Positions 2,159 through 17,554 of a DNA stretch of 64,000 bases are shown here, one piece after another (position 1 is the first letter of the stretch; every line of letters begins with the position of its first letter). The notes below the pieces were generated by a model. That model searched no databases. It had not been told where the DNA came from and saw only the letters and a list, made by a program, of their open reading frames with translations. Origin of the DNA: an uncultured Bacteroidales bacterium (GTDB lineage: Bacteria; Bacteroidota; Bacteroidia; Bacteroidales; Bacteroidaceae). The stretch is taken from the NCBI GenBank assembly GCA_902779845.1, contig CACZCZ010000009.1, positions 1-64,000 of the forward strand. The letters are read 5' to 3'. The translations under genes and the position numbers were made by a program.

Positions 2159-4660
2159 CTATTGCACAGGAATCACCACCTTACCGGATAGCTTGCGCTG
2201 TGGGTCGTTGACCTTCAGCGTCAGATTGCCTGCTTGCTTGCCAGCCTGCACGACCACCACCAGCTGCCCTGCAAAGAGCTTCATGGTGGGCTGCGTGAAG
2301 GATTCCAGGGAGGTGGCGTCGCCGTTGCAGACAGCACGGAACTGACCAGCACCCTCGACGCTGAAGGTCAGGGCATCGGCGGCATCAGGAATGAGCGTGC
2401 CGTTCTTGTCCGTGAGGCTGACGGTGATGAAGGCGAGGTCGTCGCCATCGGCGTGGAGGAGGGGAGTGCTGTCGTGCTGTGTCCAGACATCCAGCTGCAG
2501 GCGGGCTGCCTTGCCTGCCGTGCACAGGATCTGGGAACCTGCCGCCTTGCCGTCGGCATCATATACGACGACTTTCAGTTCACCCGGTTCATACTTCACC
2601 TCATTCCAGCGCAGGCGATAGCGGTCAAGCCGGCCCTCACTTAATTTTTCACTTTTCATTCTTTCACTTTTCACTTTCTTCCCTTGGCTCTTTCCATTCA
2701 CGAACAGCTCGGCCGTGGGATAGTCGGTGTAGCAATAGACGGGTGTGACCTCACCGATGCGCTCCTTGCCCCAAGACCAATGGGGTAGGAGGTGGATGGT
2801 GTGCTCCTGTGTGTTCCAATGCGAGCGATAGAGGAAGTAGCGGTCCTTGGGCAGACCTGCCAGGTCGCAGATGCCGAAGTAGCTGCTGCGCGAGGGCCAG
2901 TATTCATCGTAGGGCGTGGGCTCGCCCAGGTAGTCGAAGCCCGTCCACACGAACTCGCCGATGACCCATGGATTGTCGTCCTGCCAACGCCAGTCGTCGT
3001 CGGGAAGGTTGCTCCACGGGCACCATTCCACGTCGTAGCCCGAGCACTGGCCGTCGGGGTGCTGCCCTCTGTCGGTAGGGGTGACGGGGAAGTAGTAGCA
3101 GCCGCGCGAGCTGACGGTGGAGGCCGTCTCGCTGCCCAGCAGGAAGCCGTGCGTCAGGGTCTCGTAGGCTTTCTGGTATTTGTTCAGGCGATAGTTGAGG
3201 CCCGGCACATCCATGGCCTGCATGAAGCCGCTGCTGAGGGCGTTGTCCACGCGGTCGCAGCCCTGTGTGACGGGGCGTGTGGGGTCGAGCGCGTGGCAGA
3301 GGCCCTGCAGGCGGATGGCAATCTGGCGCCCTTCCTCACTCCACTGCTCGGGGATCTCGTTGCCGATACTCCACATCACGATAGAGGGGTGGTTGCGGTT
3401 CGCCAGCACCAGATTGGTGATGTCCTTGTCAGCCCACTCGCGGAAGAAGCGGGCGTAGCCGTTCTTGCACTTGGGATAGAGCCACATGTCGAACGACTCG
3501 GCCATCACCATCATTCCTAATGAGTCGCAGATTTCCATCTGCCACTGCGAGGGCATATTATGTGCTGTGCGGATGGCATCGCAGCCCATCGCCTTCATGA
3601 TTTTAATCTGGCGAATGAGGGCCGCTTTGTTCACGGCAGCCCCCAAGGGCCCGAGGTCATGGTGCAGGCAGACGCCCTTCAGCTTGCGTGTCTGGCCGTT
3701 GAGCTGGAAGCCGTGTTCGCGCGAGACGCGGACGGTGCGCAGGCCCGTCTTGATGGTTTTGCTATCGAGGAGTTCATACGACTGACCGTCATAGACTTCT
3801 TGGGAGGTGTTCCTGCCCACACGATTCACCATGGCCGTGACCGTATATAAATAAGGTGTCTCCGGCGACCAGAGTTTGGCATTCTTGAAGAAGAAATTCG
3901 TGTGGAACGAACCATCATCGGCCAAGCGCAGGTCATCGCTGTTGACGGTTTTGCCATCGGGTGTCGTCATGACCACCTTGGCCATCACTGCGCCAGCCGA
4001 TCCCCTCCCTGACGGGAGGGGTTGGGTCTTCAAGACCTTGCCATCTACTTCGACCCTCAGAATGCCTTTATCATTGATATTTGTAGCGCGCACCACGAGG
4101 CTCCAGTCGTCAAGGTGAGTCTTGTCTGTCAGCACCAGCTTCACGGGGCGGAAGATGCCGGCACCCGGGTACCAGCGCGAGCTCTCCTCCATATTCTTCA
4201 GATGCACCTCTAACAGGTTCTCGCCCGGATGGATGAAGGGCGTGATATCCACGCGGAACGTGTTGTAGCCGTAGGCCCAGTAGCCCGCTTTCTGACCGTT
4301 GACGGAGACCGTAGGTTGCGCCATGGCGCCGTCGAAGAGCAGCTCGGCGTGACCGTTGAAGCCTTCGGGAATAGTGAACGAACGCTTGTAGCGACCCTCA
4401 CCAATCCACGGCAGGGCACCCGAGCGTCCGCTCTTCTCTGTGGCTTCCTTCTCGCCGTTCTGCACGATGGCCACGCGCTGCAGGTCCCATTTCTTGTCGA
4501 AGGGTCCGGCGATGGCCCAGTCATGCGGTACGCTGACGGTCTGCCATTGGGCATCGCCGTCGCGCTGGAACTGCCAGTCGTGGCTCAGGAGTGTTTCGGT
4601 GCGTTGGGCTTGCATGCCGACAGCTGCTGTCAGCAGGCTTAGAAGGAATAGGCGTTTCAT
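2159..4660 (-). CDS. Glycoside hydrolase family 2, beta-galactosidase-like, exported
   Basis: Exported retaining beta-glycosidase, most probably a beta-galactosidase, of 833 residues with a signal peptide (MKRLFLLSLLTAAVGMQAQ). The order is sugar-binding jelly roll (about 25-190), Ig-like domain (about 190-310), TIM barrel (about 310-600), then C-terminal Ig-like domains. The acid/base is Glu435 in WSIGNE and the likely nucleophile is Glu569 in VIGEFVWTGFDY. Two repeat-derived inserts are visible. PLPSGRG at about 211-220 comes from the G-rich palindromic element at 4002-4030. KKVKSERMKSEK at about 660-674 comes from an AAAGTGAAA tract at 2641-2684. Both keep the frame and lie between core elements, so activity may survive. 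It is last in the leftward group from 7.7 kb. The exact substrate cannot be read from sequence. Confidence 0.9.
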   Translation of the reverse strand: MKRLFLLSLLTAAVGMQAQRTETLLSHDWQFQRDGDAQWQTVSVPHDWAIAGPFDKKWDLQRVAIVQNGEKEATEKSGRSGALPWIGEGRYKRSFTIPEGFNGHAELLFDGAMAQPTVSVNGQKAGYWAYGYNTFRVDITPFIHPGENLLEVHLKNMEESSRWYPGAGIFRPVKLVLTDKTHLDDWSLVVRATNINDKGILRVEVDGKVLKTQPLPSGRGSAGAVMAKVVMTTPDGKTVNSDDLRLADDGSFHTNFFFKNAKLWSPETPYLYTVTAMVNRVGRNTSQEVYDGQSYELLDSKTIKTGLRTVRVSREHGFQLNGQTRKLKGVCLHHDLGPLGAAVNKAALIRQIKIMKAMGCDAIRTAHNMPSQWQMEICDSLGMMVMAESFDMWLYPKCKNGYARFFREWADKDITNLVLANRNHPSIVMWSIGNEIPEQWSEEGRQIAIRLQGLCHALDPTRPVTQGCDRVDNALSSGFMQAMDVPGLNYRLNKYQKAYETLTHGFLLGSETASTVSSRGCYYFPVTPTDRGQHPDGQCSGYDVEWCPWSNLPDDDWRWQDDNPWVIGEFVWTGFDYLGEPTPYDEYWPSRSSYFGICDLAGLPKDRYFLYRSHWNTQEHTIHLLPHWSWGKERIGEVTPVYCYTDYPTAELFVNGKSQGKKVKSERMKSEKLSEGRLDRYRLRWNEVKYEPGELKVVVYDADGKAAGSQILCTAGKAARLQLDVWTQHDSTPLLHADGDDLAFITVSLTDKNGTLIPDAADALTFSVEGAGQFRAVCNGDATSLESFTQPTMKLFAGQLVVVVQAGKQAGNLTLKVNDPQRKLSGKVVIPVQ
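2640..2684. repeat. AAAGTGAAA-type tract inside the GH2 gene
   Basis: On the plus strand this reads as TTTTTCACTTTTCATTC-type units, the same simple repeat found between genes at about 1.5, 5.1, 16.3, 23.6, 45.3 and 61.3 kb. It is read in frame as KVKSERMKSEK within a linker between C-terminal domains. Confidence 0.85.
4002..4030. repeat. G-rich palindromic element, copy A (inside GH2)
   Basis: CCCCTCCCTGACGGGAGGGG followed by TTGGGTCTT. It is a single copy of the element that occurs in pairs in the L-galactose operon. Read on the minus strand it gives KTQPLPSGRG in the linker before or within the Ig-like domain of the GH2 protein. Confidence 0.85.
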
Positions 4661-4677
4661 CTTTATGGTTGTCTAAA

Positions 4678-5139
4678 TTATAGTTTTCTGAAGTAAAGGA
4701 CTGTGTCGGCGCGCTCCAGCACCAGGGCATCGCTGTCCAGCTGGCGTGTGCGATAGCGGGCGTCGAGGCTATGGATGCCCCAGGCATCCATGATGCCACC
4801 ACGCATCTCTTCCTCGGTAATCCAATCGTCGTCATCGTTCTTGTCGCGATGCAGCGAAGCATGGGCGAAGTCGTAGAAGCGGATGCTGTCGCCCTCATGC
4901 ACGAAGTGAGCGTAGAAGGTGGTGCCGTTGTTGTCCCATTGGCTCAGGTGGAGCTGTATGGAGAGGTAGGCGCGTGTGGACTTGACATCGCGCGTTGACT
5001 CGGGGGTCTGAATGGTGGTGAGCTGCCACAAACCGTCGAGATCACCATTGATGGGCACTTTGTCACAACTGTTCAACAGAAGGGTGAACAGTGAGAGAAT
5101 GAAAAGTGAGAAATGATGATGAATAAATATCTTTTTCAT
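4678..5139 (-). CDS. Small lipoprotein, lipocalin-like
   Basis: Predicted lipoprotein of 153 residues (MKKIFIHHHF start; an ATG at 5151 is also possible). The signal core FSLFILSLFTLLLNSC has its lipobox cysteine near residue 25 and is encoded by the same TTTCACT repeat as the lipoprotein at 1.5 kb. After NGDLDGLWQLTTI the chain shows alternating beta-strand patterns, which resemble the small lipocalin-like domains of Bacteroidota (DUF4847/DUF5004 type). Family membership is inference. It lies 17 bp upstream of the GH2 gene and downstream of the Wzi-like gene, all leftward and probably one transcript. Confidence 0.65.
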   Translation of the reverse strand: MKKIFIHHHFSLFILSLFTLLLNSCDKVPINGDLDGLWQLTTIQTPESTRDVKSTRAYLSIQLHLSQWDNNGTTFYAHFVHEGDSIRFYDFAHASLHRDKNDDDDWITEEEMRGGIMDAWGIHSLDARYRTRQLDSDALVLERADTVLYFRKL

Positions 5140-5188
5140 AGGAGCTTTCAACTTTAAACTCTAAACCTTAAACCTTAAACTTTCAACT
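5085..5188. repeat. Simple-repeat tracts over signal peptide and spacer
   Basis: About 5085-5125 contains GAGAATGAAAAGTGAGAAATG-type units that encode the signal peptide core of the lipoprotein. 5148-5188 contains a run of related CTTTAAACT / CCTTAAA / CTTTCAACT units filling the spacer to the Wzi-like gene. No promoter box is seen here. Confidence 0.8.
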
Positions 5189-5193
5189 CTCAA

Positions 5194-6735
5194 CTACTTC
5201 CCCAGCGCTAAGCGCTTGCGGATGGTGAGCTGTCCGCCGAAGCTGTTGCCGATGAGGCTGCCGTGGTCGAAGCCTAGGCCCAGAGCGCCCTCCCAGCCTT
5301 TGGCCCAACGGGGACGGTAGGTGCCTTCCGCGAAGGTGTAGATCTGCCGACGCGGGTCGGGCTGCGGGAGTGCGTAGCTGCCCCAGTTCTTGCTGAAGGA
5401 AGCCAGCAGACGCCAGTGCCATTCGGCCGAGGGGTCGCCAGAGAGTCCTACGTGCCACGCCTTGATGCGGTTGTTGTAGAAGTGCAGGTGGTGGCTGAGG
5501 TCTATCCCGTCGAAGCCGAGGGCCTCGTTGTACAGGGGTGATGTGATGAGCGGATTGCCGAGCGTCTGGCCGTAGTGTTGCCAGCCGGCGTAGTGGAGGT
5601 GGTTGTAGTAGTCATCGCGACCGGCCATCGCATCGGGGAGGTTATGTGTGCCATCGTGATAGACGGCGCCGGCCTGGTCGGTGGAGGTGAGGTATTCGAG
5701 TACTGCGCTGGAGAGGTAGGGGTTCTTGGGCAGCGTCACCTCGGCACCGATGAGCATATCGCGGATGCCATACTGCACGGTGAGCATGGAGTGGTCCTCG
5801 AAGAAGCGCTCCCAGTAGGCACGGGCCTGCCACTTCTCGCCGTGGTACTTCAGCTGCATCACGTAGCTGCCCAGATGGTTGCCCGAGACGTTGGGGTTGC
5901 TGCCGTCGGTGGCGTCGCTGCCACGACAGAGCAGGGCATCCCAGTAGGCGCGCAGACCGTTGTCATGTTCATAAACCGTCTTCTGCCCCTCGTGGGCACG
6001 GGGCGTCTGCACATTGTAGCTGCTGCCGCCGAACTCCGCCATCATCCGCAGGCCGATCTCATAGGTGAGAGGGAAGACATCCGCGCGACCGAATTGCCAG
6101 TAGAGGGCTTTCTCGTGGTAGCGTGTGTTCTTGGCATAGCGCGAGCCGTCGGCGACCCAGCCTTCCTGCCAGCGGCCGTCGGTCATCCAGCCGTAGGCAC
6201 ATGTCAGCTTCCATTTCCACCAGCCTTTGGTGCCAGGGAAGGAGAACCAGTCGATGTCCAGACGTGCCTGCGGGATGGGACGTGCGTTGATGCCTGCTGA
6301 CAGGGCACCGCTGCTGAGCTCTGGGTTCTTCGTCTCCATCGGCAGCTGCTTGGCGCCAAGGGTGAGGCGAATACACTTCCAAGCTCCCTCGACATAAGCC
6401 TGCTGCACGATGCCGATGCGTTCGTGGCCTGCGGCGACAGCCAGGTCAAGACCATAGCCCAAACGCCAGTCGCGCTGGGCATCGTGGGCGATGTCACGCT
6501 CTACGCGCACGCGCGCATATCCTGAATAAGGTGCAACGCTGCTGAGGCCATAGCGGTTGGCTGTAAGCCACAGCGGAGCGAAGTCGCCGGAGGCTGCTGT
6601 GCCGGAGGCTTCCAGCGTCAGCTCGGTCTCGGCGAGCCAGCGGCGCCGTGTGCTGTCGGCTTCTTCAGCGGCAGCAGCCGTGCTGCTCAGCACGAGGGCT
6701 GCCATGAGGAGGAGATATTTCATTGTAGGTGTCAT
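5194..6735 (-). CDS. Capsule assembly Wzi family outer-membrane protein
   Basis: Predicted outer-membrane beta-barrel of 513 residues with a signal peptide (MKYLLLMAALVLSSTAAAA). Features of the Caps_assemb_Wzi family are the early LTANRYGLSS stretch, many alternating aromatic strands such as WQARAYWERFFEDHSML, and a final strand ending LTIRKRLALGK. In enteric bacteria Wzi anchors capsule to the surface; in Bacteroidota the relatives are of unproven role. The ATG at 6735 overlaps the upstream stop by four bases (ATGA), suggesting coupling; the ATG at 6723 is the alternative and gives a more standard signal peptide. The upstream partner is a UPF0104 membrane protein. Confidence 0.82.
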   Translation of the reverse strand: MTPTMKYLLLMAALVLSSTAAAAEEADSTRRRWLAETELTLEASGTAASGDFAPLWLTANRYGLSSVAPYSGYARVRVERDIAHDAQRDWRLGYGLDLAVAAGHERIGIVQQAYVEGAWKCIRLTLGAKQLPMETKNPELSSGALSAGINARPIPQARLDIDWFSFPGTKGWWKWKLTCAYGWMTDGRWQEGWVADGSRYAKNTRYHEKALYWQFGRADVFPLTYEIGLRMMAEFGGSSYNVQTPRAHEGQKTVYEHDNGLRAYWDALLCRGSDATDGSNPNVSGNHLGSYVMQLKYHGEKWQARAYWERFFEDHSMLTVQYGIRDMLIGAEVTLPKNPYLSSAVLEYLTSTDQAGAVYHDGTHNLPDAMAGRDDYYNHLHYAGWQHYGQTLGNPLITSPLYNEALGFDGIDLSHHLHFYNNRIKAWHVGLSGDPSAEWHWRLLASFSKNWGSYALPQPDPRRQIYTFAEGTYRPRWAKGWEGALGLGFDHGSLIGNSFGGQLTIRKRLALGK

Positions 6736-7736
6736 ACCTTGGATTTTGTCGGATAGAGTTTCATAAGACCTAAGCCGAGTGAGGTGAAGAAGAGTTCGCG
6801 CACACGGCAGATGATGGAGATGAACAGCCCGGTGCCACCCGTGAGGCCCAGCTGGGCTGTCGAGAGGGCGAAACCTCCCTCGCGGCCGCCCAGCTGCAAG
6901 GGGATGAAGCCCAAGAGATTGGCGAAGAGCGAGGTGAAGGCCAGGATGAGGATGCTATCGACGAAGGTCATCCAGCTGAAGGCTGCGCCGAAGAGGAGAA
7001 GCATGAACATGATCTCCAACGACTGCATCACGCGTCCTACATATTCCAGCAACAGCGAGGCGTAGAAAGAGCGGCGGCTCTGGCTGTGGAGGGCGGCAAT
7101 CTGCTCGTCGATGCGATGCAGCGACTCCTCGTGCGATGCGGCGAAGCGCTGTGCCCACGAGCGCAGGCCAGGAAGATGACCCAGCCAGCGGATGCCGCGA
7201 ACGACGAGGCCGTAGCGGTAGCCGCGCAGGAAGAAATAGATGCCTGTGGCGCAGAACACGGAGGCCACCGTCAGCAGGATGATCATCCCCACATTCAAGG
7301 GCTTCAGGAACAGCCACAGCACGATGGCTGTCACCCAGTAGCAGAAATGCGTGAAGATATGCATCATGGTGAACAGCAACACCGACGACGTGGCGCGCTG
7401 AACACCCACGACGGGCGTCATCTCCATAATCTTATAGGGCTCGCCGCCCAGCAGGCCCACAGGGGTGGCGGAGTTCAGGGCAAAGCCGGAAAGGACAATC
7501 TTGAACAGATGCAGGAACGAGATGTTCACAGGGCCACTCTCGCGAAGTATCAGCCACCAGGAGAGCGTGTTCATGAGGTAGAGCACGCACCACAGCAGCA
7601 GGATGGCCACCAGCCAGTAGCCGGCGTGGCAGAGGTCCGACCACAGGACATCCCAGCTGACATCAAAGGTGACAATCATCACCACGACCGATGCCAGGCC
7701 GATGAAGAAAAGGATGTTTTTTATCTTGCTGTTCAT
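6732..7736 (-). CDS. Lysylphosphatidylglycerol synthase TM-domain (UPF0104) membrane protein
   Basis: Inner-membrane protein of 334 residues with about eight hydrophobic segments, of the flippase-like domain family of MprF (PF03706). Family-typical pieces are the GFALNSATPVGLLGGEPYK loop and the C-terminal LGGREGGFAL segment. No synthase domain is attached, so lipid or glycan-lipid translocation is the usual guess rather than aminoacylation. The ATG at 7736 was chosen because the -7 box of its promoter is at 7751-7758 on the same strand, so a start further upstream would fall outside the transcript. It is the first gene of the leftward group ending with GH2. Confidence 0.85.
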   Translation of the reverse strand: MNSKIKNILFFIGLASVVVMIVTFDVSWDVLWSDLCHAGYWLVAILLLWCVLYLMNTLSWWLILRESGPVNISFLHLFKIVLSGFALNSATPVGLLGGEPYKIMEMTPVVGVQRATSSVLLFTMMHIFTHFCYWVTAIVLWLFLKPLNVGMIILLTVASVFCATGIYFFLRGYRYGLVVRGIRWLGHLPGLRSWAQRFAASHEESLHRIDEQIAALHSQSRRSFYASLLLEYVGRVMQSLEIMFMLLLFGAAFSWMTFVDSILILAFTSLFANLLGFIPLQLGGREGGFALSTAQLGLTGGTGLFISIICRVRELFFTSLGLGLMKLYPTKSKV

Positions 7737-7750
7737 ATCCTTAGCGAGCG

Positions 7751-7758
7751 CAAAGATA
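7751..7758 (-). promoter_or_regulatory. Promoter -7 box (TATCTTTG) of the leftward UPF0104-Wzi-GH2 group
   Basis: TATCTTTG on the minus strand, an exact match to Bacteroidota TAnnTTTG, ends 14 bases before the ATG at 7736. It settles the start of the downstream gene. Confidence 0.7.
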
Positions 7759-7822
7759 AGGCTTTTGTGGGACTTGCACACAAAAAAACGGTCAAAAAGT
7801 TGGCTGTATCGTAAAAACTACG

Positions 7823-7871: not shown

Positions 7872-7944
7872 GATCCGCTAGCTCAGCAGGTAGAGCACAA
7901 CACTTTTAATGTTGGGGTCTTGGGTTCGAGCCCCAAGCGGATCA
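7872..7944 (+). tRNA. tRNA-Lys (anticodon TTT)
   Basis: A full cloverleaf can be drawn. The acceptor pairs are GATCCGC with GCGGATC plus discriminator A. The D stem is GCTC/GAGC. The anticodon stem is CAACA/TGTTG around loop CTTTTAA. The T arm is TTGGG-TTCGAGC-CCCAA. The anticodon TTT reads lysine codons. The 3' CCA is not encoded. Confidence 0.96.
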
Positions 7945-8073: not shown

Positions 8074-9021
8074 ATGAACTATTATGCACTGGGCCGCACA
8101 GGATTGAAGGTGTCGCAGCTGAGCTTCGGCGCGTCATCGCTGGGCGGCGTCTTCCACGACATCGACGAAGGACGGGCCATCGAAGCCGTCTTCACAGCCC
8201 TCGATGGAGGGATGAACCTGATTGACGTGTCGCCGTACTATGGCCACTACAAGGCCGAAACCGTGTTGGGCAAGGCGCTGCGGCAGATTCCACGCGACCG
8301 ATACATCCTCTCCACGAAGGTGGGGCGCTACGGCAAGGATGGCGTGAACACATGGGACTACAGTGGCAAGCGCGCACAAGAGAGCGTCTATGAGAGTATG
8401 GAGCGTCTGGGCGTGGAACACATCGATCTGATTCACGTCCACGACATCGAGTTCCAGGCATCCCTGCCCGGTGGCCTGCAGAAGGTCGTGGATGAGACGT
8501 TGCCTGCGCTCGTGGAGCTGAAGGAGAAAGGGCTCGTCAGCCATGTCGGCATCACAGACCTGCAGATTCCCAACCTGCGCTGGGTCATCGACCACAGCCA
8601 GGAAGGTACGGTGGAGACGGTGCTGAACTTCTGCCACTACTGCCTTTGCGACGATGCGCTGGCTGACAACCTCGACTACTTCGAGGCGCACGGCATCGGG
8701 CTCATCAATGCCTCGCCGCTGTCCATGGGTCTGCTGTCTGAACGTGGCGTGCCAGCATGGCATCCGGCACCGAAGCCGCTGGTGGAGGCGTGTCAGCGGG
8801 CTGTCCAGCATTGCAAGGCGAAGGGCTATCCCATCGAGAAGCTCGCCATGCAGTTCTCTGTCAGCAATCCTCGTATCCCTTCCACGCTCTTCTCCTCGGC
8901 CAACCCCGATAATGTCCGTCGGAACCTCGCGTTCATCGAAGACCCCATTGACTGGCAGCTGGTGAAGGAGGTGCAGGAGATCATTGGTGATCAAAAGAGG
9001 GTGACGTGGGCTAATAGCTAA
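8074..9021 (+). CDS. Aldo-keto reductase, probable L-galactose 1-dehydrogenase
   Basis: NAD(P)-dependent aldo-keto reductase of 315 residues. Start MNYYALGRTGLKVSQLSFG and the LIHVHDIEF stretch with following DETLPALVELKEKG and GITDLQIP resemble plant L-galactose dehydrogenases more than general AKRs. AKR tetrad residues fit Asp and Tyr in LIDVSPYYG, Lys in STKVGRYG and His in LIHVHD. Predicted reaction: L-galactose to L-galactonolactone; L-fucose is a plausible alternative substrate because it differs only at C6. The start at 8074 follows the promoter box at 8037-8044; longer in-frame readings cross the tRNA. It is the first gene of the operon with lactonase, fucI, fucP, Zn-dehydrogenase, uxaB and uxaA. 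Confidence 0.85.
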   Translation: MNYYALGRTGLKVSQLSFGASSLGGVFHDIDEGRAIEAVFTALDGGMNLIDVSPYYGHYKAETVLGKALRQIPRDRYILSTKVGRYGKDGVNTWDYSGKRAQESVYESMERLGVEHIDLIHVHDIEFQASLPGGLQKVVDETLPALVELKEKGLVSHVGITDLQIPNLRWVIDHSQEGTVETVLNFCHYCLCDDALADNLDYFEAHGIGLINASPLSMGLLSERGVPAWHPAPKPLVEACQRAVQHCKAKGYPIEKLAMQFSVSNPRIPSTLFSSANPDNVRRNLAFIEDPIDWQLVKEVQEIIGDQKRVTWANS

Positions 9022-9057
9022 AAGACCCACCCCCGACCCCTCCCGTAATGGAGGGGA
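9021..9057. repeat. G-rich palindromic element, copy B
   Basis: Lies directly after the aldo-keto reductase stop. The 34 bases at 9023-9056 are the exact reverse complement of copy C at 9119-9152. The internal palindrome is CCCCTCCCGTAATGGAGGGG. It ends with GTTACCTA just beyond, a right end it shares with copy D. Confidence 0.92.
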
Positions 9058-9077
9058 GAAAAGTTACCTATCAAGAC

Positions 9078-10058
9078 ATGAAATCAATAGATAATCATCA
9101 CACATCGCGCCAGCCCCTCCCCTCCATTACGGGAGGGGTCGGGGGTGGGTCTTTAATTGACGCCCACTCCCATCTCTGGCTTCGCCAAGACACAGTGGTG
9201 AATGGTTATCCCATCCACACGCTGGAGCAGAACCGCAGCCGCAGCCTCTTCTTTGGTGAGGAGCGGCAGATGTTGCCGCCCTTCATGATAGACGGATGTA
9301 ACACGGCAGAGGTCTTCCTGAGCAATATGGATTATGCGCAGGTGGGTGGTGCTGTCGTGGTGCAGGAAGTGATTGACGGCTGTCAGAATGCTTATCTGGA
9401 GCAGGTGCAGAAGGAATATCCCGACCGCTTCTTCTGTATGGGAATGGCATGGAACCTCGAGGAGGCGCAGGCCGTTGCCGAGGCTGGGTTGAGGGGTATC
9501 GCCTTCCCCGGTCATCGCTTCAAGGACTCGCTGCTGACGCTCATGCCCGTGTTCAAATTCATGGAAGAGCGCGGCATGATTGTCTCGATGTGCCTGGCTG
9601 ACGGCGACAAGCAGGTGGGGGAGATGCGCGAGGTGATTGCCGAATGTCCGCGCCTGAAGATTGCCATCGGTCATCTCGGAATGGCAGACCAGCCCACAAC
9701 GCCGCCTTGGGAGAACGAGAACTGGCGGCAGGAGATCCTGCTGGCGCGCCACGAGAATGTCATGGTGGAGAGCGGCGGCATCACCTGGCTCTACAACCCA
9801 GAGTTCTATCCATTCCCCTCAGCTGTGCGCGCTATTCGTGAAGCTGCCGACCTCGTGGGGTGGGACAAGCTGATGTGGGGCAGCGACTATCCACGCACCA
9901 TCACCGCCATCACCTATCGTATGTCCTACGACTTCATCACCAAGTCCTCAGAGCTCACCGCCGAACAGAAGGCTGCCTTCCTCGGAGGAAACGCTCAGTG
10001 CTTCTATGGATTCAATGCATTGCCAGAGTTACCTTATATAAAGAATATGAGCGAGTAA
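9078..10058 (+). CDS. Amidohydrolase-fold lactonase, probable L-galactonolactonase
   Basis: Metal-dependent TIM-barrel hydrolase of the amidohydrolase-2 family (COG3618 type) to which sugar lactonases belong. The start of the fold, IDAHSHLW, carries the HxH metal ligands, and GSDYPRT near the C-terminus supplies the conserved Asp. Predicted role: opening L-galactono-lactone made by the preceding enzyme. The N-terminus is odd: about 20 residues before IDAHSH ([14 protein letters not shown]) are encoded by repeat copy C. ATG 9048 lies inside repeat copy B and ATG 9078 in the loop between the copies. I chose 9078 because fucP has the same arrangement. Length about 326 residues. Confidence 0.82.
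9118..9153. repeat. G-rich palindromic element, copy C
   Basis: Exact inverted partner of copy B, translated in frame as [13 protein letters not shown] at the N-terminus of the lactonase. The plus strand carries GGGAGGGGTCGGGGGTGGG, four G-runs that satisfy the usual G-quadruplex pattern. Confidence 0.92.
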
Positions 10059-10066
10059 ACTCATCG

Positions 10067-10097
10067 TAATAACGAAATATCGAACAATCGTAATATC
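10067..10097. repeat. Degenerate CGTAATAACGAAATATCGAA tract
   Basis: The spacer between lactonase and fucI is filled with short units CGTAATA / CGAAATAT / CGAACAAT. Similar tracts lie at 14455-14485 before uxaB and about 23638-23680 before the DUF4292 gene. No promoter box is seen. Confidence 0.7.
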
Positions 10098-10107
10098 GAA
10101 AAGCCTT

Positions 10108-11925
10108 ATGAACACTTACCCCAAAATTGGCATTCGCCCGACCATCGACGGTCGTCAGGGCGGCGTCCGCGAAAGCCTTGAAGAGAAAACGATGTGCCTG
10201 GCTAAGGCTGTGGCGGAGTTAATCACCAAGAACCTGCGCAACGGCGACGGCTCGCCTGTGGAGTGTGTCATTGCCGACGGAACCATCGGTCGTGTGGCCG
10301 AGAGTGCTGCCTGTGCCGAGAAATTCGAGCGCGAGGGCGTGGGGAGCACCATCACCGTGACCTCTTGCTGGTGCTATGGCAGTGAGACGATGGACATGAA
10401 CCCGCATTACCCGAAGGCTGTCTGGGGTTTCAATGGCACGGAGCGCCCGGGTGCTGTTTATCTGGCTGCCGTGCTGGCGGCTCATGCCCAGAAGGGGCTG
10501 CCTGCCTTTGGCATCTATGGCCACGATGTACAGGACATTGCCGACAACACCATCCCTGTCGACGTCGCAGAGAAGATTCTGCGCTTCGCCCGTGCGGCAC
10601 AGGCGGTAGCCACGATGCGTGGCAAGAGCTACCTCTCGCTGGGCAACACCTGCATGGGAATTGCCGGCTCCATCGTGGATGCCGACTTCCTGCAGCACTA
10701 TCTCGGTATGCGTACGGAATATGTCTCGCTCGTTGAGATCCTGCGTCGCGTTGATTTCAATATCTTCGACCCCGAGGAGTTCAAGAAAGCCATGGCGTGG
10801 GTGGAAAAATACTGCAAGCCACAGGAAGGCCACGACTATAACGAGGACCGTCCGCTCTTTCCCGGCACCCCGATGACCACCTTCAACGGAAAGGGTAAGG
10901 GAAAGACACGCGAGGAGAAGGATGCAGACTGGGAGTTCACCGTGAAGACGATGATGATCATTCGCGACCTGATGCATGGCAATCCCAACCTTCTGGAGAT
11001 GGGCTACAAGGAGGAGGCACTCGGCCATAACGCCCTCTTCGGCGGCGTGCAGGGCCAGCGCCAGTGGACGGACTATCGTCCGAACTTCGACTTCCCCGAG
11101 GCCATGCTCTGCACCAGCTTCGACTGGAACGGCGTGCGCGAAGCCGATGTGCTGGCCACCGAGAACGACTTCCTCAACGGCCTCTCCATGCTCTTTGGCC
11201 ATCTGCTCACGAATCGCGGCGTGATGTTCTCCGACATCCGCACCTATTGGAGCCCCGAGGCTGTAGAACGTGTGGCTGGTAAGAAACCTGAAGGCCAAGC
11301 TGCCGGGGGCTTCATCCACCTCATTAACAGTGGCGCCACCACCCTCGATGCCACTGGTGCGATGACCGCTGCCGACGGTAAACCCACCATCAAGGAGCCT
11401 TGGAACATCACCAACGAGGATGTGGAAGCCTGCCTGAAGGCTACCTCGTGGATGCCAGCAGACCGCGACTACTTCCGTGGTGGCGGCTACAGCTCGCACT
11501 TCGTTACCAAGGGCGGAATGCCGATGACGATGATGCGTGTGAATATGGTGGCGGGCCTTGGTCCTGTGTTGCAGCTGGCAGAAGGCTGGACCGTGGAGCT
11601 CGACCCGAAGACCCACGACATCCTCGACAAACGCACCGACCCCACATGGCCAACGACTTGGTTCGTGCCACGTCTCGATCCATCGAAGGACTGCTTCAAG
11701 GATGTCTATAGCGTCATGAACTGCTGGGGCGCCAACCACGGTGCCATCGCCTATGGACATATCGGTGCCGACCTCATCACGCTGTGCTCCATCCTCCGCA
11801 TCCCCGTCTGCATGCACAATGTCGCCGATGCCGACATCTTCCGTCCTGCCGCCTGGAATGCCTTTGGCATGGATAAGGAAGGCGCCGACTACCGTGCCTG
11901 CCAGAATTTCGGGCCGTTGTATTGA
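10108..11925 (+). CDS. fucI: L-fucose isomerase
   Basis: Cytosolic manganese-dependent ketol isomerase of 605 residues (family length about 590-600). The N-terminus [19 protein letters not shown] and the motifs [25 protein letters not shown] and the C-terminal [19 protein letters not shown] identify the family. It converts L-fucose to L-fuculose and related enzymes accept D-arabinose and, weakly, L-galactose. No fuculokinase or aldolase gene is in the window, and its neighbours build an oxidative route, so it may act on L-galactose or feed a pathway encoded elsewhere. It is followed after 5 bp by repeat copy D. Confidence 0.95.
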
Positions 11926-11930
11926 GCCCC

Positions 11931-11970
11931 TCCTCACTCCCCCTTGTAGGGGGAGGGTGGTTACCTATGC
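11931..11970. repeat. G-rich palindromic element, copy D
   Basis: CCCCTCCTCACTCCCCCTTG followed by TAGGGGGAGGGTGGTTACCTA, just after the fucI stop. It is the inverted partner of copy E at 12029-12068, with the fucP start codon in the loop between them. Confidence 0.85.
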
Positions 11971-12000
11971 AACCTGAAACTAATTCCTTATTTATATTAT

Positions 12001-13362
12001 ATGGAAGCATCCAGTCAAATACATTCTACTCCCCTCCCTACAAGGGAGGGGCAGGGGGGAGGGTCTGCTTTAGTCCCCAGGAAATACCTTCTCACCTTCA
12101 TCCTCATCACCTCGCTGTTCGCTCTGTGGGGCTTTGCCAACGACATCACGAACCCGATGGTGGCGGCGTTCCAGACGCTGATGGAGATCTCGGCGGCGAA
12201 GGCTTCGATGGTGCAGTTTGCGTTCTATGGCGGCTATGCCACGATGGCTGTGCCCGCTGCGCTGTTCATCCGCAAGTACTCCTACAAGGTCGGTGTGCTC
12301 ATCGGCCTCGGACTCTATGCCGTGGGCGCTTTCCTGTTTATCCCAGCTGCGCAGTTCCAAGAGTTTGCTTTCTTCTGCGTGTCGCTGTACATCCTCACCT
12401 TCGGTCTGGCCTTCCTTGAGACCAGCGCCAACCCCTTCATCCTCTCGTTGGGCGACAAGAGCAACTCCACACGTCGCCTGAACCTGGCGCAGGCCTTCAA
12501 CCCTGTCGGTTCTCTGTCGGGTATGGCTGTTGCCTCGTTCATCGTGCTGCCCAACCTCATCTCCGACAAGCGCGATGCTGCCGGACAGGTCATCTTCCAT
12601 GGATTGAGTGAGGCTGAGAAGGCTGATATCCGTCTGCATGACCTCGCCGTCATCCGCGATCCCTACGTTGCCATCGGCCTTGTGGTCCTCGTGATGTTCG
12701 TCATCATCGCCCTCACCAAGATGCCTTCGCTCAAAGGAGAGAATGATGCGACCACCAGTGCCCGCACTACGCTCTCCCGTCTCTGGCACAACAAGATCTA
12801 CCGCAATGGCGTGCTGGCGCAGGTGCTCTATGTCGCTGCTCAAATCATGGTGTGGACCTTCATCATCCAATATGCCGATCACCTGGGCATCGACAAGGCG
12901 ACAGCCCAGCGGTGGAACATCTTAGCGATGTCGCTATCATTGACGGGCCGTTTCGTTGGCACTTACATTATGAAATGGATTAACCAGCGCCGCCTGCTAA
13001 TGATATTCGGCATCGGCGCTTCCGTCTGCACGCTCGGTGCTATCTGCATCGAAGGCATGTTGGGCCTGTACTCGTTGGTGTGCATCAGCCTCTTCATGTC
13101 CATCATGTTCCCCAGTATCTACGGTATTGCCCTTGAGAACGTGCAGACTGAGGACACTTCCCTCGGTGCCGCATTCCTCGTGATGGCCATCGTGGGTGGT
13201 GCCTTGATGCCTCCGTTGCAGGGTCATCTCATCGACCAGCAGGTCATCTTCGGCTGGCCTGCCGTCAACTTCTCCTTTATCCTCCCCTTCGTCTGCTTCA
13301 TCTTCATCACCATCTACGGCTATCGTACTTTTAAGCAGACCCGCCCCTCACCCTCCTTTTAA
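12001..13362 (+). CDS. fucP: MFS permease, L-fucose/L-galactose:H+ symporter type
   Basis: Twelve-helix major facilitator of 453 residues in the FucP family. Helix 1 begins YLLTFILITSLFALWGFAND, the usual FucP signature with the N-D pair, and FLETSANPFIL and AFNPVGSLSG are also typical. The substrate is inferred to be L-fucose or L-galactose from the operon. The first about 24 residues (MEASSQIHSTPLPTREGQGG and on) are not typical and are encoded by repeat copy E; the last residues RPSPSF and the stop lie in copy F. Thus both ends of the gene have been rewritten by the same element. Confidence 0.9.
   Translation: MEASSQIHSTPLPTREGQGGGSALVPRKYLLTFILITSLFALWGFANDITNPMVAAFQTLMEISAAKASMVQFAFYGGYATMAVPAALFIRKYSYKVGVLIGLGLYAVGAFLFIPAAQFQEFAFFCVSLYILTFGLAFLETSANPFILSLGDKSNSTRRLNLAQAFNPVGSLSGMAVASFIVLPNLISDKRDAAGQVIFHGLSEAEKADIRLHDLAVIRDPYVAIGLVVLVMFVIIALTKMPSLKGENDATTSARTTLSRLWHNKIYRNGVLAQVLYVAAQIMVWTFIIQYADHLGIDKATAQRWNILAMSLSLTGRFVGTYIMKWINQRRLLMIFGIGASVCTLGAICIEGMLGLYSLVCISLFMSIMFPSIYGIALENVQTEDTSLGAAFLVMAIVGGALMPPLQGHLIDQQVIFGWPAVNFSFILPFVCFIFITIYGYRTFKQTRPSPSF
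12029..12068. repeat. G-rich palindromic element, copy E
   Basis: CTCCCCTCCCTACAAGGGAG and on to GGGTCTGC, translated as TPLPTREGQGGGSA at the N-terminus of FucP. The plus strand has four G-runs (GGG, GGGG, GGGGGG, GGG) within 25 bases. Confidence 0.88.
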
Positions 13363-13381
13363 GGGAGGGGGTAGTCACCTA
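13337..13381. repeat. G-rich palindromic element, copy F
   Basis: AGACCCGCCCCTCACCCTCC, then TTTTAAGGGAGGGGGTAGTCACCTA, covering the last codons and stop of fucP. Orientation is opposite to copy E, so the two flank the gene. Confidence 0.85.
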
Positions 13382-13435
13382 ACCAGACCCCATAACCTAA
13401 AAAACATGTTAAATAGTTAATTTTCAAATACAATC

Positions 13436-14452
13436 GTGAAAGCATTACAGATTACTGACACCAAACAGCTCGAGGTCATCGAGCTTTCTGCGCCGCAGCC
13501 CGCCGCAGGCGAGGTGCTGCTGCGCATCAATTATGTAGGCTTCTGCGGCTCGGACCTCAATACGTTCCGTGGCCGCAACGCGTTGGCGCTGAAGCCCGTC
13601 ATCCCTGGGCATGAGATCAGTGCTACCGTAGAAAGGGTGGGAGAGGGTGTGCCGGCTAAGTTCCAGACGGGACAGGTCGTGACCGTAGATCCCTATACCG
13701 CTTGCGGTAACTGTCCCAGCTGCCGCCGTCGCCGTTTTAATGCCTGTCAGCACAACGAGACGCTGGGCGTGCAGCGCCACGGTGCGATGCGCGAGTTTAT
13801 CAGCGTGCCTTGGCAGAAGGTTATTCCTGCAGAAGGACTTGCGCCACAGGACATCGCGCTGATAGAGCCGATGAGTGTGGGCTTCCACGCCGTGGATCGC
13901 GGACAGGTGACAGACAGCGACACGGTGCTGGTGATTGGCTGCGGCATGATTGGCGTGGGTGCCATCGTGCGTGCCAGTCTGCGTGGCGCCACCGTGATTG
14001 CTATGGATCTCGATGATGAGAAGCTGGCGCTGGCACGTGAGCTCGGCGCTGCAGCCACCGTGAACAGCGGCACCGAGGATGTCCACGCCCGTCTGCAGGA
14101 GCTGACAGATGGTGCCGGTCCCGATGTCGTCATCGAAGCTGTAGGCGCAACGCCTACTTACAACTGCGCTGTCAACGAGGTGGCCTTCACGGGGCGTATC
14201 GTCTGCATCGGCTATGCTCCTGGCGATGTGCCTCTGCCCACCCGTTTCTTTGTGCAGAAGGAATTGGACATACGAGGCTCACGCAACGCCCTGCCCGATG
14301 ACTTCCGCGCCGTCATCCGCTATCTGCTTCGCGGCACTTGTCCTACTGCGCGCCTCATCTCAGGCATCGTGAAGCCCGAAGAGGCTGCTCGGGCCATGGC
14401 AGACTGGGATGCCGCACCAGGTAAAGTGTTCCGCATTTTAGTGAAATTCTAA
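13436..14452 (+). CDS. Zinc-binding dehydrogenase, probable L-galactonate 5-dehydrogenase
   Basis: Medium-chain Zn dehydrogenase of 338 residues. The catalytic zinc ligands are Cys in GFCGSD and the His-Glu of PGHE. The structural zinc cysteines are in CGNCPSCRRRRFNAC. The Rossmann glycine motif is VIGCGMIGVGA. It resembles E. coli LgoD/RspB-type enzymes. Position between the lactonase and tagaturonate reductase points to oxidation of L-galactonate to D-tagaturonate. The start is GTG at 13436, giving MKALQITD, which fits the family. It is preceded by repeat copy F and a 55-base spacer without a promoter box. Confidence 0.82.
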   Translation: MKALQITDTKQLEVIELSAPQPAAGEVLLRINYVGFCGSDLNTFRGRNALALKPVIPGHEISATVERVGEGVPAKFQTGQVVTVDPYTACGNCPSCRRRRFNACQHNETLGVQRHGAMREFISVPWQKVIPAEGLAPQDIALIEPMSVGFHAVDRGQVTDSDTVLVIGCGMIGVGAIVRASLRGATVIAMDLDDEKLALARELGAAATVNSGTEDVHARLQELTDGAGPDVVIEAVGATPTYNCAVNEVAFTGRIVCIGYAPGDVPLPTRFFVQKELDIRGSRNALPDDFRAVIRYLLRGTCPTARLISGIVKPEEAARAMADWDAAPGKVFRILVKF

Positions 14453-14454
14453 TT

Positions 14455-14485
14455 GTCGTAATAACGTAATAACGTAATAACGAAA
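14455..14485. repeat. CGTAATAA tandem tract before uxaB
   Basis: Repeats of CGTAATAA (three units, then CGAAAG) fill the 37-base gap between the Zn-dehydrogenase stop and the uxaB ATG. Confidence 0.75.
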
Positions 14486-14489
14486 GAAA

Positions 14490-15971
14490 ATGCAAGAACT
14501 CAACAGCACCACCGCTCTTAAGGTACAACGCCCTGAGCGCATCATACAATTCGGCGAGGGCAACTTCCTTCGCGCTTTCATAGATTGGATTGTTTGGCAG
14601 ATGGATAAGAAAACAGATTTCGATGCCTCTGTCGTCATCGTGCAACCCATAGCACAGGGTATGGCTGAGCGCCTGCAAGCACAGGATTGCCTCTATCACG
14701 TGAATCTGCAGGGTCTCATCGACGGTCAGGCCGTGAACTCATTGGAACTCATTGACAGCGTCAGCCGCACGGTGAATCCCTATGCCGACCATGCTGCTTT
14801 CTTGGCACTGGCCACACAACCCGATGTGCGCTTTGTCATCTCCAACACCACCGAGGCCGGTATTGCCTTCGACCCCGCTTGTCGGCTGAACGATGCGCCG
14901 CCGGCCTCTTATCCCGGCAAGCTCACACAGTTGCTCTACCACCGCTTCCGTGCTTTCAACGGCGACCCTGCCAAAGGACTTATCATCATGCCTTGCGAAC
15001 TCATCTTCCAAAATGGTCATCACCTTGTGGATTGCATCCGCAAGTATATTGAGCTGTGGAAAGAAGACCTCGGGGCCGACTTCGAGGCATTCCGCCAGTG
15101 GTTTGAGCAGTCGTGCTATGTCTGTGCTACACTGGTGGACCGCATCGTACCGGGCTTTCCGCGCAAGGATATCGACGCCATCCAGCAGAAAGTCGGCTAT
15201 GCCGACCAGATGGTGGTTCAGGCAGAGGCTTTCCACCTCTGGGTAATTGAAACCGCTGCCAACCTGCCTCTCGAGCAGTTGGCACGGGAGTTCCCTGCCG
15301 ACAAGGCTGGCCTGCACGTCATCTTCACCCATGATGAGTCGCCCTACCACGAGCGCAAGGTGACGCTCTTGAATGGTCCGCACACAGTCCTCTCGCCTGT
15401 CGCCTTCCTGGCAGGACTCAACATTGTGCGCGATGCTTGCCAGCACGAGATCATCGGGCCCTTCATCCGCCGTGTGATGTACGATGAATTACTACCGACG
15501 TTGAATCTCCCCGAGGATGAATTGCTCCACTTCGCAGACGATGTGATGGAGCGCTTCTGCAACCCCTTCGTGGATCACCAGCTCACCAGCATCATGCTCA
15601 ACTCGTTCCCGAAGTTCCAGACACGTGACCTGCCAGGCTTGAAGACCTACCTCGAGCGCAAGGGTACACTGCCAAAGGGAATCGTCCTCGGTCTGGCTGC
15701 CATTTGTGTCTATTACCGTGGTGGTCAGCGTGGCGACGGCACGGCCATTCAGCCCAACGACGATCCTCGTATCATGCAGTTGCTCACGGACCTGTGGGCA
15801 ACGGGTGATGTGCGTAAAGTTGCCGAGGGCGTTCTCGCTGCCCAGGACCTCATCTGGCACGAGCATGGTGACCTCAACACCATCCCCGGCCTCACCGACC
15901 TCCTCACAGAGAGCATCCAGAGCATTCTGGATTGCGGGATGATGGAGACGGTGAAGAAATTGAAAGATTGA
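14490..15971 (+). CDS. uxaB: Tagaturonate reductase (altronate oxidoreductase)
   Basis: NAD-dependent mannitol-dehydrogenase-family enzyme of 493 residues (E. coli UxaB is similar in length). The N-terminus has the family pattern RIIQFGEGNFLRAFIDW, and VLSPVAFLAG and DDVMERFCNPFVDH occur in the C-terminal helical domain. It reduces D-tagaturonate to D-altronate. It normally serves galacturonate breakdown; here it would take tagaturonate formed from L-galactonate. No uxaC (uronate isomerase) is in the window, which supports entry from L-galactose rather than galacturonate. Confidence 0.93.
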   Translation: MQELNSTTALKVQRPERIIQFGEGNFLRAFIDWIVWQMDKKTDFDASVVIVQPIAQGMAERLQAQDCLYHVNLQGLIDGQAVNSLELIDSVSRTVNPYADHAAFLALATQPDVRFVISNTTEAGIAFDPACRLNDAPPASYPGKLTQLLYHRFRAFNGDPAKGLIIMPCELIFQNGHHLVDCIRKYIELWKEDLGADFEAFRQWFEQSCYVCATLVDRIVPGFPRKDIDAIQQKVGYADQMVVQAEAFHLWVIETAANLPLEQLAREFPADKAGLHVIFTHDESPYHERKVTLLNGPHTVLSPVAFLAGLNIVRDACQHEIIGPFIRRVMYDELLPTLNLPEDELLHFADDVMERFCNPFVDHQLTSIMLNSFPKFQTRDLPGLKTYLERKGTLPKGIVLGLAAICVYYRGGQRGDGTAIQPNDDPRIMQLLTDLWATGDVRKVAEGVLAAQDLIWHEHGDLNTIPGLTDLLTESIQSILDCGMMETVKKLKD

Positions 15972-16018
15972 AAAGTTTCGATAGTTCGAATTTGTTCACA
16001 CGTTAATTAGTTAATCCA

Positions 16019-17554
16019 TTGAAGCAGTTCCTTCAAATCCATCCTGCCGACACAGTGGCTGTGGCCCTGCAGGATCTTCCTGGCATCCCCGCAGGCCATA
16101 AGTTTGCCCTTCGCGACATTGCAGAGGGTGAGGATGTTATCAAGTATGGCAACCCCATCGGCCATGCCACGCGCCTTATCCGCAAAGGTGAGTTGGTGGA
16201 TCACCACAATATCGCCACCAATCTCAGTGGGACGATAGATTACGGAGGAGTGAAAAATGAAAGAATGAACAATGAACAATTCAATCATTCTTCACATTTC
16301 ACTTTTAATGGCTACCCTCGTCCCGACGGTCAGGTTGGTATCCGCAATGACATCTGGGTGATCCCCACCGTAGGTTGTGTCAATGGAATCTGTAAGCAGA
16401 TTGTGGAAAGGGCAGAAAAGGCCCTCTCCCAGCTCCCCCGTAATGGGGAGAGCCTCGCTCCGCTCGATAGCTGCGCACCAGCTACTCCCCTCCCTGACGG
16501 GAGGGGTCAGGGGGTGGGTCTGCATCATTTCCCCCATCCCTTTGGCTGCTCGCAACTCGGTGAGGACCATGAGGACACACGTAAGATTCTGCGGGATATG
16601 GTGTTGCACCCCAATGCCGGTGGCGTACTCGTCGTGGGCCTCGGTTGCGAGAACAACCAGCCGCGCGAGTTTGAGAAACTGCTAGGTGATTACGATCGTC
16701 AGCGCATCCGCTTCCTCGTCTCGCAGGAAGTGGAGGGCGACGAGGTGGAAGCGGGTGTGGAGATTGTCAAGGAACTCTATACCCAGGCGCAGTCCTTCAA
16801 GCGTGTACCCGTACCTATTTCAAAGTTGCGCATAGGTCTTAAATGCGGCGGCTCTGATGGGCTCTCCGGCATCACCGCCAACCCGCTGCTGGGCTGTTTC
16901 TCCGACTGGCTCTGTGCGCAGGGTGGAACCACCATCCTGACAGAGGTTCCTGAGATGTTCGGTGCAGAGCACCTGCTAATGAAGCGTGCCATCTCCGATG
17001 ACGTTCTGCAGGCCACCATCCGTCTCATCAACGACTTCAAAGAGTACTACCTCAGCCACGGCCAGCCCGTAGGCGAGAATCCTTCGCCCGGCAATAAAGC
17101 CGGCGGCATCTCAACTCTCGAAGAGAAGGCGCTTGGCTGTACGCAGAAGTCAGGCTCCTCGCCCGTCGTAGGAGTGCTGAAGTATGGGGAACGCCTTCAT
17201 TCTTCATTGAGCCCGTCGGGGCTATTCCTCCTCTGTGCTCCCGGCAACGACCTTGTGGCCTCAACAGCGTTGGCTGCTGCCGGCTGCCAGCTGGTCTTGT
17301 TCACCACGGGGCGCGGCACGCCCTTCTCCACGTTCGTCCCGACGTTGAAGGTTGCTACAAACAGCGGGCTGTACCGCCGTAAGCCCCATTGGATGGACTT
17401 CAATGCGGGCATTCTTCTGGATGATGTGCCGATGGAGGAACTTGTTAAGCGCTTTGCCGCTCTCATCCTCGATGTCGCCAACGGACAGCCGGTGAAGGCA
17501 GAACTTTCCGGTACACCCGAGTTCGCCATCTGGAAGAATGGCGTTACGCTGTGA
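16019..17554 (+). CDS. uxaA: Altronate dehydratase with two repeat-encoded inserts
   Basis: Iron-dependent enzyme turning D-altronate into 2-keto-3-deoxygluconate. It has 511 residues from a TTG start (MKQFLQIHPADTVAVALQDL). The N-terminal SAF-type domain is followed by the catalytic part with IPTVGCVNGI, GCSQLG (176-181), LGCENNQ, CGGSDGLSGITANP and NPSPGNKAGG. Compared with E. coli UxaA as I recall it, two stretches are foreign. About 78-97 (VKNERMNNEQFNHSSHFTF) in the inter-domain linker comes from an AAAGTGAAA-type tract. About 136-169 (with PLPDGRGQGVG) comes from paired G-rich elements just ahead of the conserved GCSQLG. Frame is kept. Whether the enzyme is active is open. It is the last gene of the operon. 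Confidence 0.9.
   Translation: MKQFLQIHPADTVAVALQDLPGIPAGHKFALRDIAEGEDVIKYGNPIGHATRLIRKGELVDHHNIATNLSGTIDYGGVKNERMNNEQFNHSSHFTFNGYPRPDGQVGIRNDIWVIPTVGCVNGICKQIVERAEKALSQLPRNGESLAPLDSCAPATPLPDGRGQGVGLHHFPHPFGCSQLGEDHEDTRKILRDMVLHPNAGGVLVVGLGCENNQPREFEKLLGDYDRQRIRFLVSQEVEGDEVEAGVEIVKELYTQAQSFKRVPVPISKLRIGLKCGGSDGLSGITANPLLGCFSDWLCAQGGTTILTEVPEMFGAEHLLMKRAISDDVLQATIRLINDFKEYYLSHGQPVGENPSPGNKAGGISTLEEKALGCTQKSGSSPVVGVLKYGERLHSSLSPSGLFLLCAPGNDLVASTALAAAGCQLVLFTTGRGTPFSTFVPTLKVATNSGLYRRKPHWMDFNAGILLDDVPMEELVKRFAALILDVANGQPVKAELSGTPEFAIWKNGVTL
16249..16311. repeat. AAAGTGAAA-type tract inside uxaA
   Basis: GTGAAAAATGAAAGAATGAA units followed by an inverted TTCTTCACATTTCACTTTT part. It is translated in frame as the linker between the SAF-like and catalytic parts of altronate dehydratase. 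Confidence 0.85.
16423..16523. repeat. G-rich palindromic element pair, copies G1 and G2, inside uxaA
   Basis: G1 (16423-16453) contains CTCCCCCGTAATGGGGAG. G2 (16485-16523) contains CTCCCCTCCCTGACGGGAGG then GGTCAGGGGGTGGGTCTGC. They are in opposite orientation with about 31 bases between them, the same head-to-head layout as B/C and D/E, but entirely within a coding frame. Confidence 0.9.

Follow-up and report, generated by a model that had tools for sequence, protein, structure and literature searches.

The window analysed here, a stretch of 64,000 nt from contig CACZCZ010000009.1 of an uncultured Bacteroidales bacterium (positions are numbered within it), contains G-rich palindromic repeats that belong, in all likelihood, to a family of short non-autonomous mobile elements that is based on doublets and whose survivors in genes stay in frame. 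The family occurs throughout the source genome, is present in relatives and is often found inside ordinary, often essential genes. A preliminary description of the window had proposed palindromes that insert in frame and form facing pairs, and genome-wide and comparative tests support this: we observe a family, a fixed orientation of its arms, shared interiors, an in-frame bias, and empty as well as filled orthologous sites. Two points need correction: the pair, not the single copy, is the likely mobile unit, and gene interiors and starts are favoured.

The source genome (G000; G and L numbers denote genomes and loci) is a 2.92-Mb draft in 47 contigs with a completeness of 86%. Its nearest named relatives, judged by the altronate dehydratase UxaA, are uncultured Prevotellaceae, Bacteroidaceae and Bacteroidales genomes, many of them labelled rumen. 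When the genome was searched with the core pattern GGAGGGGNNGGGGGNGGGTCT at up to 2 mismatches, 83 matches were obtained as compared to 0 for the reversed pattern, and a chance origin of the repeats is thereby excluded genome-wide. Within the window alone a loose stem pattern yields only a modest excess (10 matches, shuffle mean 3.3; 1 of 100 shuffles reached 10). In a family sample of 151 genomes, in which up to 1 mismatch to GGAGGGGNNGGGGGNGGGTCT was accepted, 30 genomes had matches, 57 of which are in the source genome and at most 42 in any other; with the reversed control, two genomes were matched, each once. Variants are abundant elsewhere: at up to 2 mismatches, a form with a GGGGTC end has 112 matches in G017 and a GAGTCT form 78 matches in G160, to which locus L050 belongs. 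Individual arms are hairpins in their own right, G-rich palindromes that bear a GGGTCT or GAGTCT tail. The copies read are laid out roughly as CGCGCCAGCC-n-CTCCCCTCCcTNACGGGAGGGG-nn-GGGGGTGGGTCT, and the stem feet of 82 distinct copies are, by reading, typically GCC-n-CT and TTGGGGG. Arm loops in several genomes (L026, L134, L135) carry the nested sequence CTCGGCTCGAAGAGACGCTTGACCCTTCAAGAAC or variants of it, and an insert of this type is also seen in L040 before the transporter gene fucP and in UxaA of L042 and L050.

An arm profile, run on 290 kb of sampled DNA, detected 104 arms that were grouped into 70 units. Among arm neighbours within 400 bp (n=35, one self-overlapping arm match dropped), 30 are arranged '-+', which means that the arms face each other with their GGGTCT ends outward, 4 are '--', 1 is '++' and 0 are '+-'; only a quarter would be expected to be '-+' (binomial p 7e-14). 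The same arrangement prevails in G160 (21 '-+', 2 '--', 2 '++' and 1 '+-', n=26), where the sole '+-' falls between two neighbouring pairs. The interiors of the 30 pairs span 39-185 nt. A CCTGCGG end is present in 11 of them and a GCGCCAG-type motif in 19, all 11 carrying both motifs at opposite ends of the interior, and AATGACCC occurs in 6. By reading, an in-frame ATG is present in nine interiors, and (R/L)Q encoded by the GCGCCAG end comes no more than about 11 codons later; GAAATAACG-type repeats precede six of these ATGs. Partner arms resemble each other more than random partners do (22.6 vs 20.3, permutation p 0.0015), and arms belonging to one unit have loops complementary to each other in L036 and L050. 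Because of the fixed facing orientation, the partly shared interiors, the likeness of partner arms and the complementary loops, the doublet and not the single arm is probably the unit of spread, as in REPINs, the hairpin-forming doublets of repetitive extragenic palindromes (REPs).

At least eight copies sharing one stem and end had been reported for the window, eight of them with positions. G/C-rich hairpins do lie at all eight places, but the shared consensus fits about five of the eight. The exact CCCCTCC-n6-GGAGGGG stem is found at four places (4002, 9037, 9119 and 16487), and three copies, at 11931, 13337 and 16423, are partner arms that have diverged: their stems differ and a clean GGGTCT end is missing. 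The three proposed facing pairs were recovered, with 58 nt between B and C and, going by the boundaries first drawn for them, 58 nt between D and E and 31 nt between G1 and G2. Copies do lie in coding frames, as had been claimed, but six rather than five touch frames: those at 4002 (glycoside hydrolase family 2, GH2), 9118 (amidohydrolase), 12029 and 13337 (FucP) and 16423 and 16485 (UxaA). The arms and their host genes are:

2159..4660, minus strand: glycoside hydrolase family 2 gene, host of arm A.
4000..4030, plus strand: arm A, a DNA hairpin, in frame on the minus strand (KTQPLPSGRGSAGA).
9021..9154, no strand assigned: doublet unit B/C, with an in-frame ATG at 9078 in its interior.
9021..9058, minus strand: left arm B, which immediately follows an aldo/keto reductase stop codon.
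9117..9154, plus strand: right arm C, in frame close to the amidohydrolase N-terminus.
9078..10058, plus strand: amidohydrolase gene; the in-frame start codons before its conserved part lie in the B/C unit.
11926..11970, minus strand: left arm D (divergent), which immediately follows the fucI stop codon.
12001..13362, plus strand: gene for a FucP-like transporter of the major facilitator superfamily, host of arms E and F.
12029..12068, plus strand: right arm E, in frame at the FucP N-terminus (STPLPTREGQGGGS).
13337..13381, plus strand: arm F (divergent), with the fucP stop codon (13360-13362) in the hairpin loop.
16019..17554, plus strand: UxaA-type altronate dehydratase gene, host of G1/G2.
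16240..16306, plus strand: repeat of another family (GTGAAAAATGAAAG ... CTTCACATTTCACTTTT), in frame in UxaA linker 1.
16420..16453, minus strand: left arm G1, part of a short asymmetric type of doublet.
16485..16523, plus strand: right arm G2; G1 and G2 together encode LPRNGESLAPLDSCAPATPLPDGRGQGVGL in UxaA linker 2.

Arm A is situated between the Pfam domains Glyco_hydro_2_N and Glyco_hydro_2 of its GH2-type host. The two 38-nt arms of B/C are 100% complementary and, with the 58 nt between them, fold as a single 38-bp DNA hairpin (-51 kcal/mol, z -11.3). The interior of this unit, which precedes the amidohydrolase gene in the window, recurs in L040 before another gene, fucP. Rfam gave a tRNA at 7872-7944 and, with scores well short of the gathering threshold, three weak matches, of which two fall on the B/C hairpin.

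Insertions into genes spare the reading frame to a degree that is far from random. Frames were called with a small codon model that judged both flanks of the 70 units independently. Where a single unit had coding sequence of one strand on either side, the frame was kept and stayed open in 17 of 18 cases (1/3 expected; p 1e-7). Doublets and larger units are in frame and open in 7 cases, in phase with an internal stop in 3 and in another phase in 6; those of the last group that were read (C2:119847, C20:109845) sit at gene junctions. The remaining 36 units comprise 8 opposite-strand calls, 22 with one coding flank, 5 with none and 1 off the stretch end, and where only one flank is coding the element lies on the gene's 5' side in 19 of 22. 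Five further genomes, for which 60 loci were returned for 177 matches, contributed comparable single units that are all in frame (24/24) and doublets of which 9 are in frame and open and 1 is not, with the reservation that two insertions are common to G089 and G148 and the counts are thus not all independent. By a simple codon score, the 82 distinct copies divide into 32 in mid-gene positions, 23 close to an N-terminus, 4 close to a C-terminus and 23 in other places. All 26 mid-gene host open reading frames (ORFs) contain Pfam families, 25 of them above the curated cut-off. The hosts include DnaG, an Mfd-type helicase, RecG, MutS2, YidC, carbamoyl-phosphate synthase, threonine synthase (ThrC), glycine dehydrogenase, a methionine-synthase-type protein, IspD, a HemN-type radical-SAM protein, a pseudouridine synthase and an inositol-phosphatase-type enzyme, among others. 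A single Pfam domain match extends across the insert in threonine synthase, IspD and the inositol phosphatase. We gave up an argument based on loops free of stop codons in the frame used: it is circular, since the ORFs are stop-free by definition. A long in-frame insert framed by element arms is shared by L288 (G161) and L295 (G160), in a host that looks like CTP synthase.

By reading, units at operon junctions lie right after stop codons and before or around start codons. An in-frame ATG inside the unit, with no open frame entering from upstream, was found in 18 of 42 coding directions examined, some of which are likely chance frames. Some junction units seem to supply the start codon and leader peptide of the downstream gene. 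For the amidohydrolase of the window, in-frame start candidates are the ATG of the unit at 9078 and a codon at 9048 in the hairpin loop; the next ATG past the B/C unit lies 39 codons downstream, and translation therefore probably begins at 9078 (or 9048). An apparent preference of eight units for divergent promoters was discarded, L004 and L009 showing that some of these are co-directional operon junctions misassigned by the codon model. The doublet at L009 (G000:C3:195094-195246) lies between two genes that, judged by their peptide ends, look like groES and groEL. Short tandem GTAATAACG / GAAATATCG repeats are present in several doublet interiors and in the window at 10066-10102, 14450-14494 and 23639-23691; the first two of these arrays stand just upstream of start codons, and such repeats are perhaps portable A/T-rich leaders.

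Comparison with empty orthologous sites, which the preliminary description had suggested, turned out in its favour for FucP, the amidohydrolase, ThrC and UxaA. Here gene starts are sequence-based predictions and the comparisons are between species. Three FucP orthologues that are 92-94% identical (L033, L034, L037) lack arm E, their match to the window protein beginning at residue 24, just past this arm, and in L033 and L034 the junction consists of a stop codon, three bases and an ATG, with no element. In L040, whose amidohydrolase is 88% identical, the genes overlap where the window holds the entire B/C unit. The ThrC site could be read in 14 of 16 relatives and its flanks are nearly invariant. 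At least three relatives have palindromic inserts there (L225, of the same type as in the source genome, L228 and L235), that of L220 looks like a decayed element, and most others have short linkers. DnaG could be matched in 15 of 16 relatives, and 10 of these matches are interrupted close to the decorated linker.

UxaA has two such linkers, and different elements fill them in different species. Palindrome-like DNA is present at either linker in 17 of 77 aligned sequences, the window included, and in 2 of 385 control windows of the same genes. Occurrence of the same peptides in distant orthologues, which the preliminary description had named as the sign of native sequence, was not observed: palindrome-like DNA is found in the two linkers of 0 of 29 distant UxaA orthologues. 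Among the 77 sequences, the linker-2 peptide of the window is common only to two relatives, L035 and L055. UxaA of L050 has near-identical interiors at both linkers, and its genome, G160, contains a further doublet in a UxaA-like frame. In the AlphaFold model of the window protein (mean predicted local distance difference test score, pLDDT, 86.7; predicted template modelling score, pTM, 0.88) the G1/G2 insert contains the only stretch of at least three residues with pLDDT below 50 (residues 145-163), and residues 81-90, encoded by the other repeat, average 57; the inserts are predicted to form loops on an intact core. Repeats of other kinds were seen in the same linkers: L032 has a relative of the window's GTGAAAAATGAAAG-type repeat at the same place in linker 1, and in L038 a third kind, GTCAACGATAACG-type tandem repeats (NENENENVNVNDN), occupies the two linkers and keeps the frame.

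In the scenario we favour, the usual unit would consist of two head-to-head arms around a partly conserved interior of 39-185 nt, fold into a long hairpin and move in this form, with single arms spreading too. Most insertions into genes would be lost, and the survivors, kept by selection because their length and sequence leave the frame open, would collect in flexible linkers, at N-termini, gene starts and junctions. At an operon junction, a unit could bring along a leader, an ATG and an open frame through its right arm, and so create a new N-terminus for the downstream protein. A Y1/HUH enzyme resembling TnpA-REP, the transposase associated with REPs, would be a likely candidate for mobilization. 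Several points weigh against this scenario. The true partner ranks best in only 4 of the 30 pairs, so that heterodimers are common, and several nominally single units are really short doublets whose left arm was missed by the profile (G1/G2, for example). The codon model was right for 91% of its own training genes, one of which (16530) had been entered in the wrong phase. N-terminal copies could be located in leaders instead of coding sequence if translation starts downstream. No target-site duplication is consistent across the 30 units; the B/C site alone is readable with a TAA duplication, the remaining units are not. Seven of the eight source-genome loci encoding proteins like REP-associated tyrosine transposases (RAYTs) have no arm within 1.6 kb, and the element-rich genomes G089, G148 and G120 have no match to the RAYT-like protein. 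All sequences compared are draft or metagenome assemblies.

Inverted arms that measure about 35-38 nt, match perfectly or nearly so and enclose a conserved interior, and a B/C site compatible with a TAA duplication, are also what miniature inverted-repeat transposable elements would present, in which the arms are terminal inverted repeats for cut-and-paste movement by a DDE transposase. We consider this unlikely because no target duplication is consistent, a result that suits a Y1/HUH enzyme better than a DDE transposase, and because each arm is a hairpin by itself and 39 of the 70 units are one-armed to the profile, some of these being short doublets with a missed partner. The strong hairpin and the tight placement at operon junctions, after stops and before or around starts, would likewise suit RNA or DNA signals (attenuators, terminators, mRNA stabilizers or protein-binding sites) held in position by selection for function, a role that has been proposed for classical REPs. 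This explanation appears equally improbable, as mid-gene copies, 32 of 82, lie in unrelated genes, presence varies between close orthologues (ThrC), and the 5' location of 19 of the 22 one-flank units differs from that of REPs, which are described as mainly downstream of genes in PMC3733652 (Di Nocera et al. 2013). That the peptides are native low-complexity linkers encoded by palindromes through mere coincidence is scarcely credible: the inserts do fall in flexible linkers, but the same DNA is present between genes and in unrelated genes of one genome, different elements occupy the same linker across species, distant orthologues are without them, and the empty sites already contradict it.

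Doublet-based mobile elements of this sort have counterparts among known palindromic repeats. Facing REP dimers with conserved spacers, stop codons supplied by the element and intragenic REPs are reported in PMC3733652. The resemblance to bacterial interspersed mosaic elements (BIMEs) noted in the preliminary description is borne out: like REPINs and BIMEs, the present family has two inverted, head-to-head palindromes with a short, partly conserved spacer that can form one hairpin, and its distribution over species is patchy (PMC6006769, Quentin et al. 2018; PMC3733652). In contrast to those described there, it is largely intragenic, lacks the GTAG/GTGG foot (by reading, no GT[AG]G tetranucleotide at the stem foot of the 82 copies) and has no convincing element-flanked RAYT in the source genome. 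Intragenic GTAG/CGTC REPs, for example of O. terrae and R. conorii (PMC3733652), likewise include copies in replication, repair and pseudouridine-synthase genes, facing dimers, some conserved spacers and ends that give stop codons, whereas in our case the tags are absent (no CGTC, TGTC or CCTC tag was read at the stem foot of the 82 copies), a large share lies in genes, and linkers are refilled across species. Rickettsia palindromic elements, summarised in PMC10969869, where a cited title calls protein-coding palindromes unique to Rickettsia, are an apt comparison as far as in-frame palindromes in unrelated, likely functional genes and the coexistence of several families in one genome are concerned (PMC10969869; PMC3733652). 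As differences, the present family belongs to another phylum and has GGGTCT/GAGTCT ends, doublets with partly shared interiors and several N-terminal units with an in-frame ATG, and the description of the first Rickettsia elements gives them about 150 bp and a conserved peptide. In-frame REPs between the HUH and Tyr motifs of class 2.4 TnpA-REP genes (PMC6006769) recall arrays in RAYT-like genes of the source genome, but its RAYT-like P0001 has a large C-terminal part; for class 2.6, 'atypical secondary structures' near Bacteroidetes genes are described. In the literature searched, with subscription journals mostly outside its scope, we found no report of this family or of in-frame palindromes in Bacteroidota. 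The family works like known palindromic elements but is strongly gene-invading.

A RAYT as established mobilizer is not among our conclusions. The preliminary description had suggested looking for one; RAYT-like genes do exist in the source genome, but they are not convincingly tied to the element. Eight loci are related to one Y1 protein, one of them broken, and a HUH motif could be read in six. Arms do lie on both sides of the weak match on C5, 0.3 kb ahead of its frame and 1.4 kb behind it; no HUH motif was seen in this match. A RAYT-like match is present in 18 of 30 element-positive as compared to 22 of 121 other genomes (p 1.3e-5, kinship ignored), but among the 15 genomes that carry at least ten copies only 8 have one. 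Within genus g30, G030, G053, G072, G105 and G134 have such a match and no element, and the element-rich G089, G120 and G148 show the reverse. In G017, three of its 112 own-variant copies are near one RAYT-like gene, a link that is suggestive only. Pfam Y1 transposase matches occur in 7 of 14 element-rich genomes, and an element copy lies in the examined flanks of 2 of 13 such loci (L179, L184). The role of a RAYT stays a suggestion because most source-genome loci are without an arm and some element-rich genomes are without a match. In four RAYT-like paralogues of the source genome (L031, L166, L167, L170) the HUH motif is separated from the tyrosine motif by an array that is repetitive or of low complexity. 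At L183 (G019:C157) a Y1 transposase-like stretch lies in frame within a long methylase-like ORF and is flanked on both sides by NRSAGVSPAS(D/Y)ITAGGT repeats.

In-frame palindromes pervade rumen Bacteroidota with genomes of about 3 Mb, decorate enzymes of replication, repair and biosynthesis, and vary between species at the same sites. Going further, it is conceivable, if still short of probable, that the doublets are coding-adapted mobile cassettes which repeatedly rebuild linkers and N-termini across a bacterial family. Some lineages would then, as we tentatively picture it, carry units whose length is divisible by three and whose frame is open (SPPALP...RAGGES type), and others units that act as a portable translation start made up of leader, ATG and open arm. 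If true, selfish DNA would keep supplying essential proteins with new loops and start sites. How selfish repeats spare the genes they enter, and whether useful loops or starts arise from them, are testable questions. Annotators should be aware of the inserts, which can displace the predicted start of a gene and introduce linkers foreign to the ancestral protein.

Further repeats accompany the family in the window. The second repeat family (GTGAAAAATGAAAG / TTCACTTTTCA) is also found at 1468-1534, 1582-1622, 2640-2680, 5075-5111, 45323-45378 and 61295-61356, and other short palindromic or tandem arrays lie at 38723-38884, 39131-39218 and 52962-53027 (AACCTACATGG; 22-nt GGTCTTCGAGCT).

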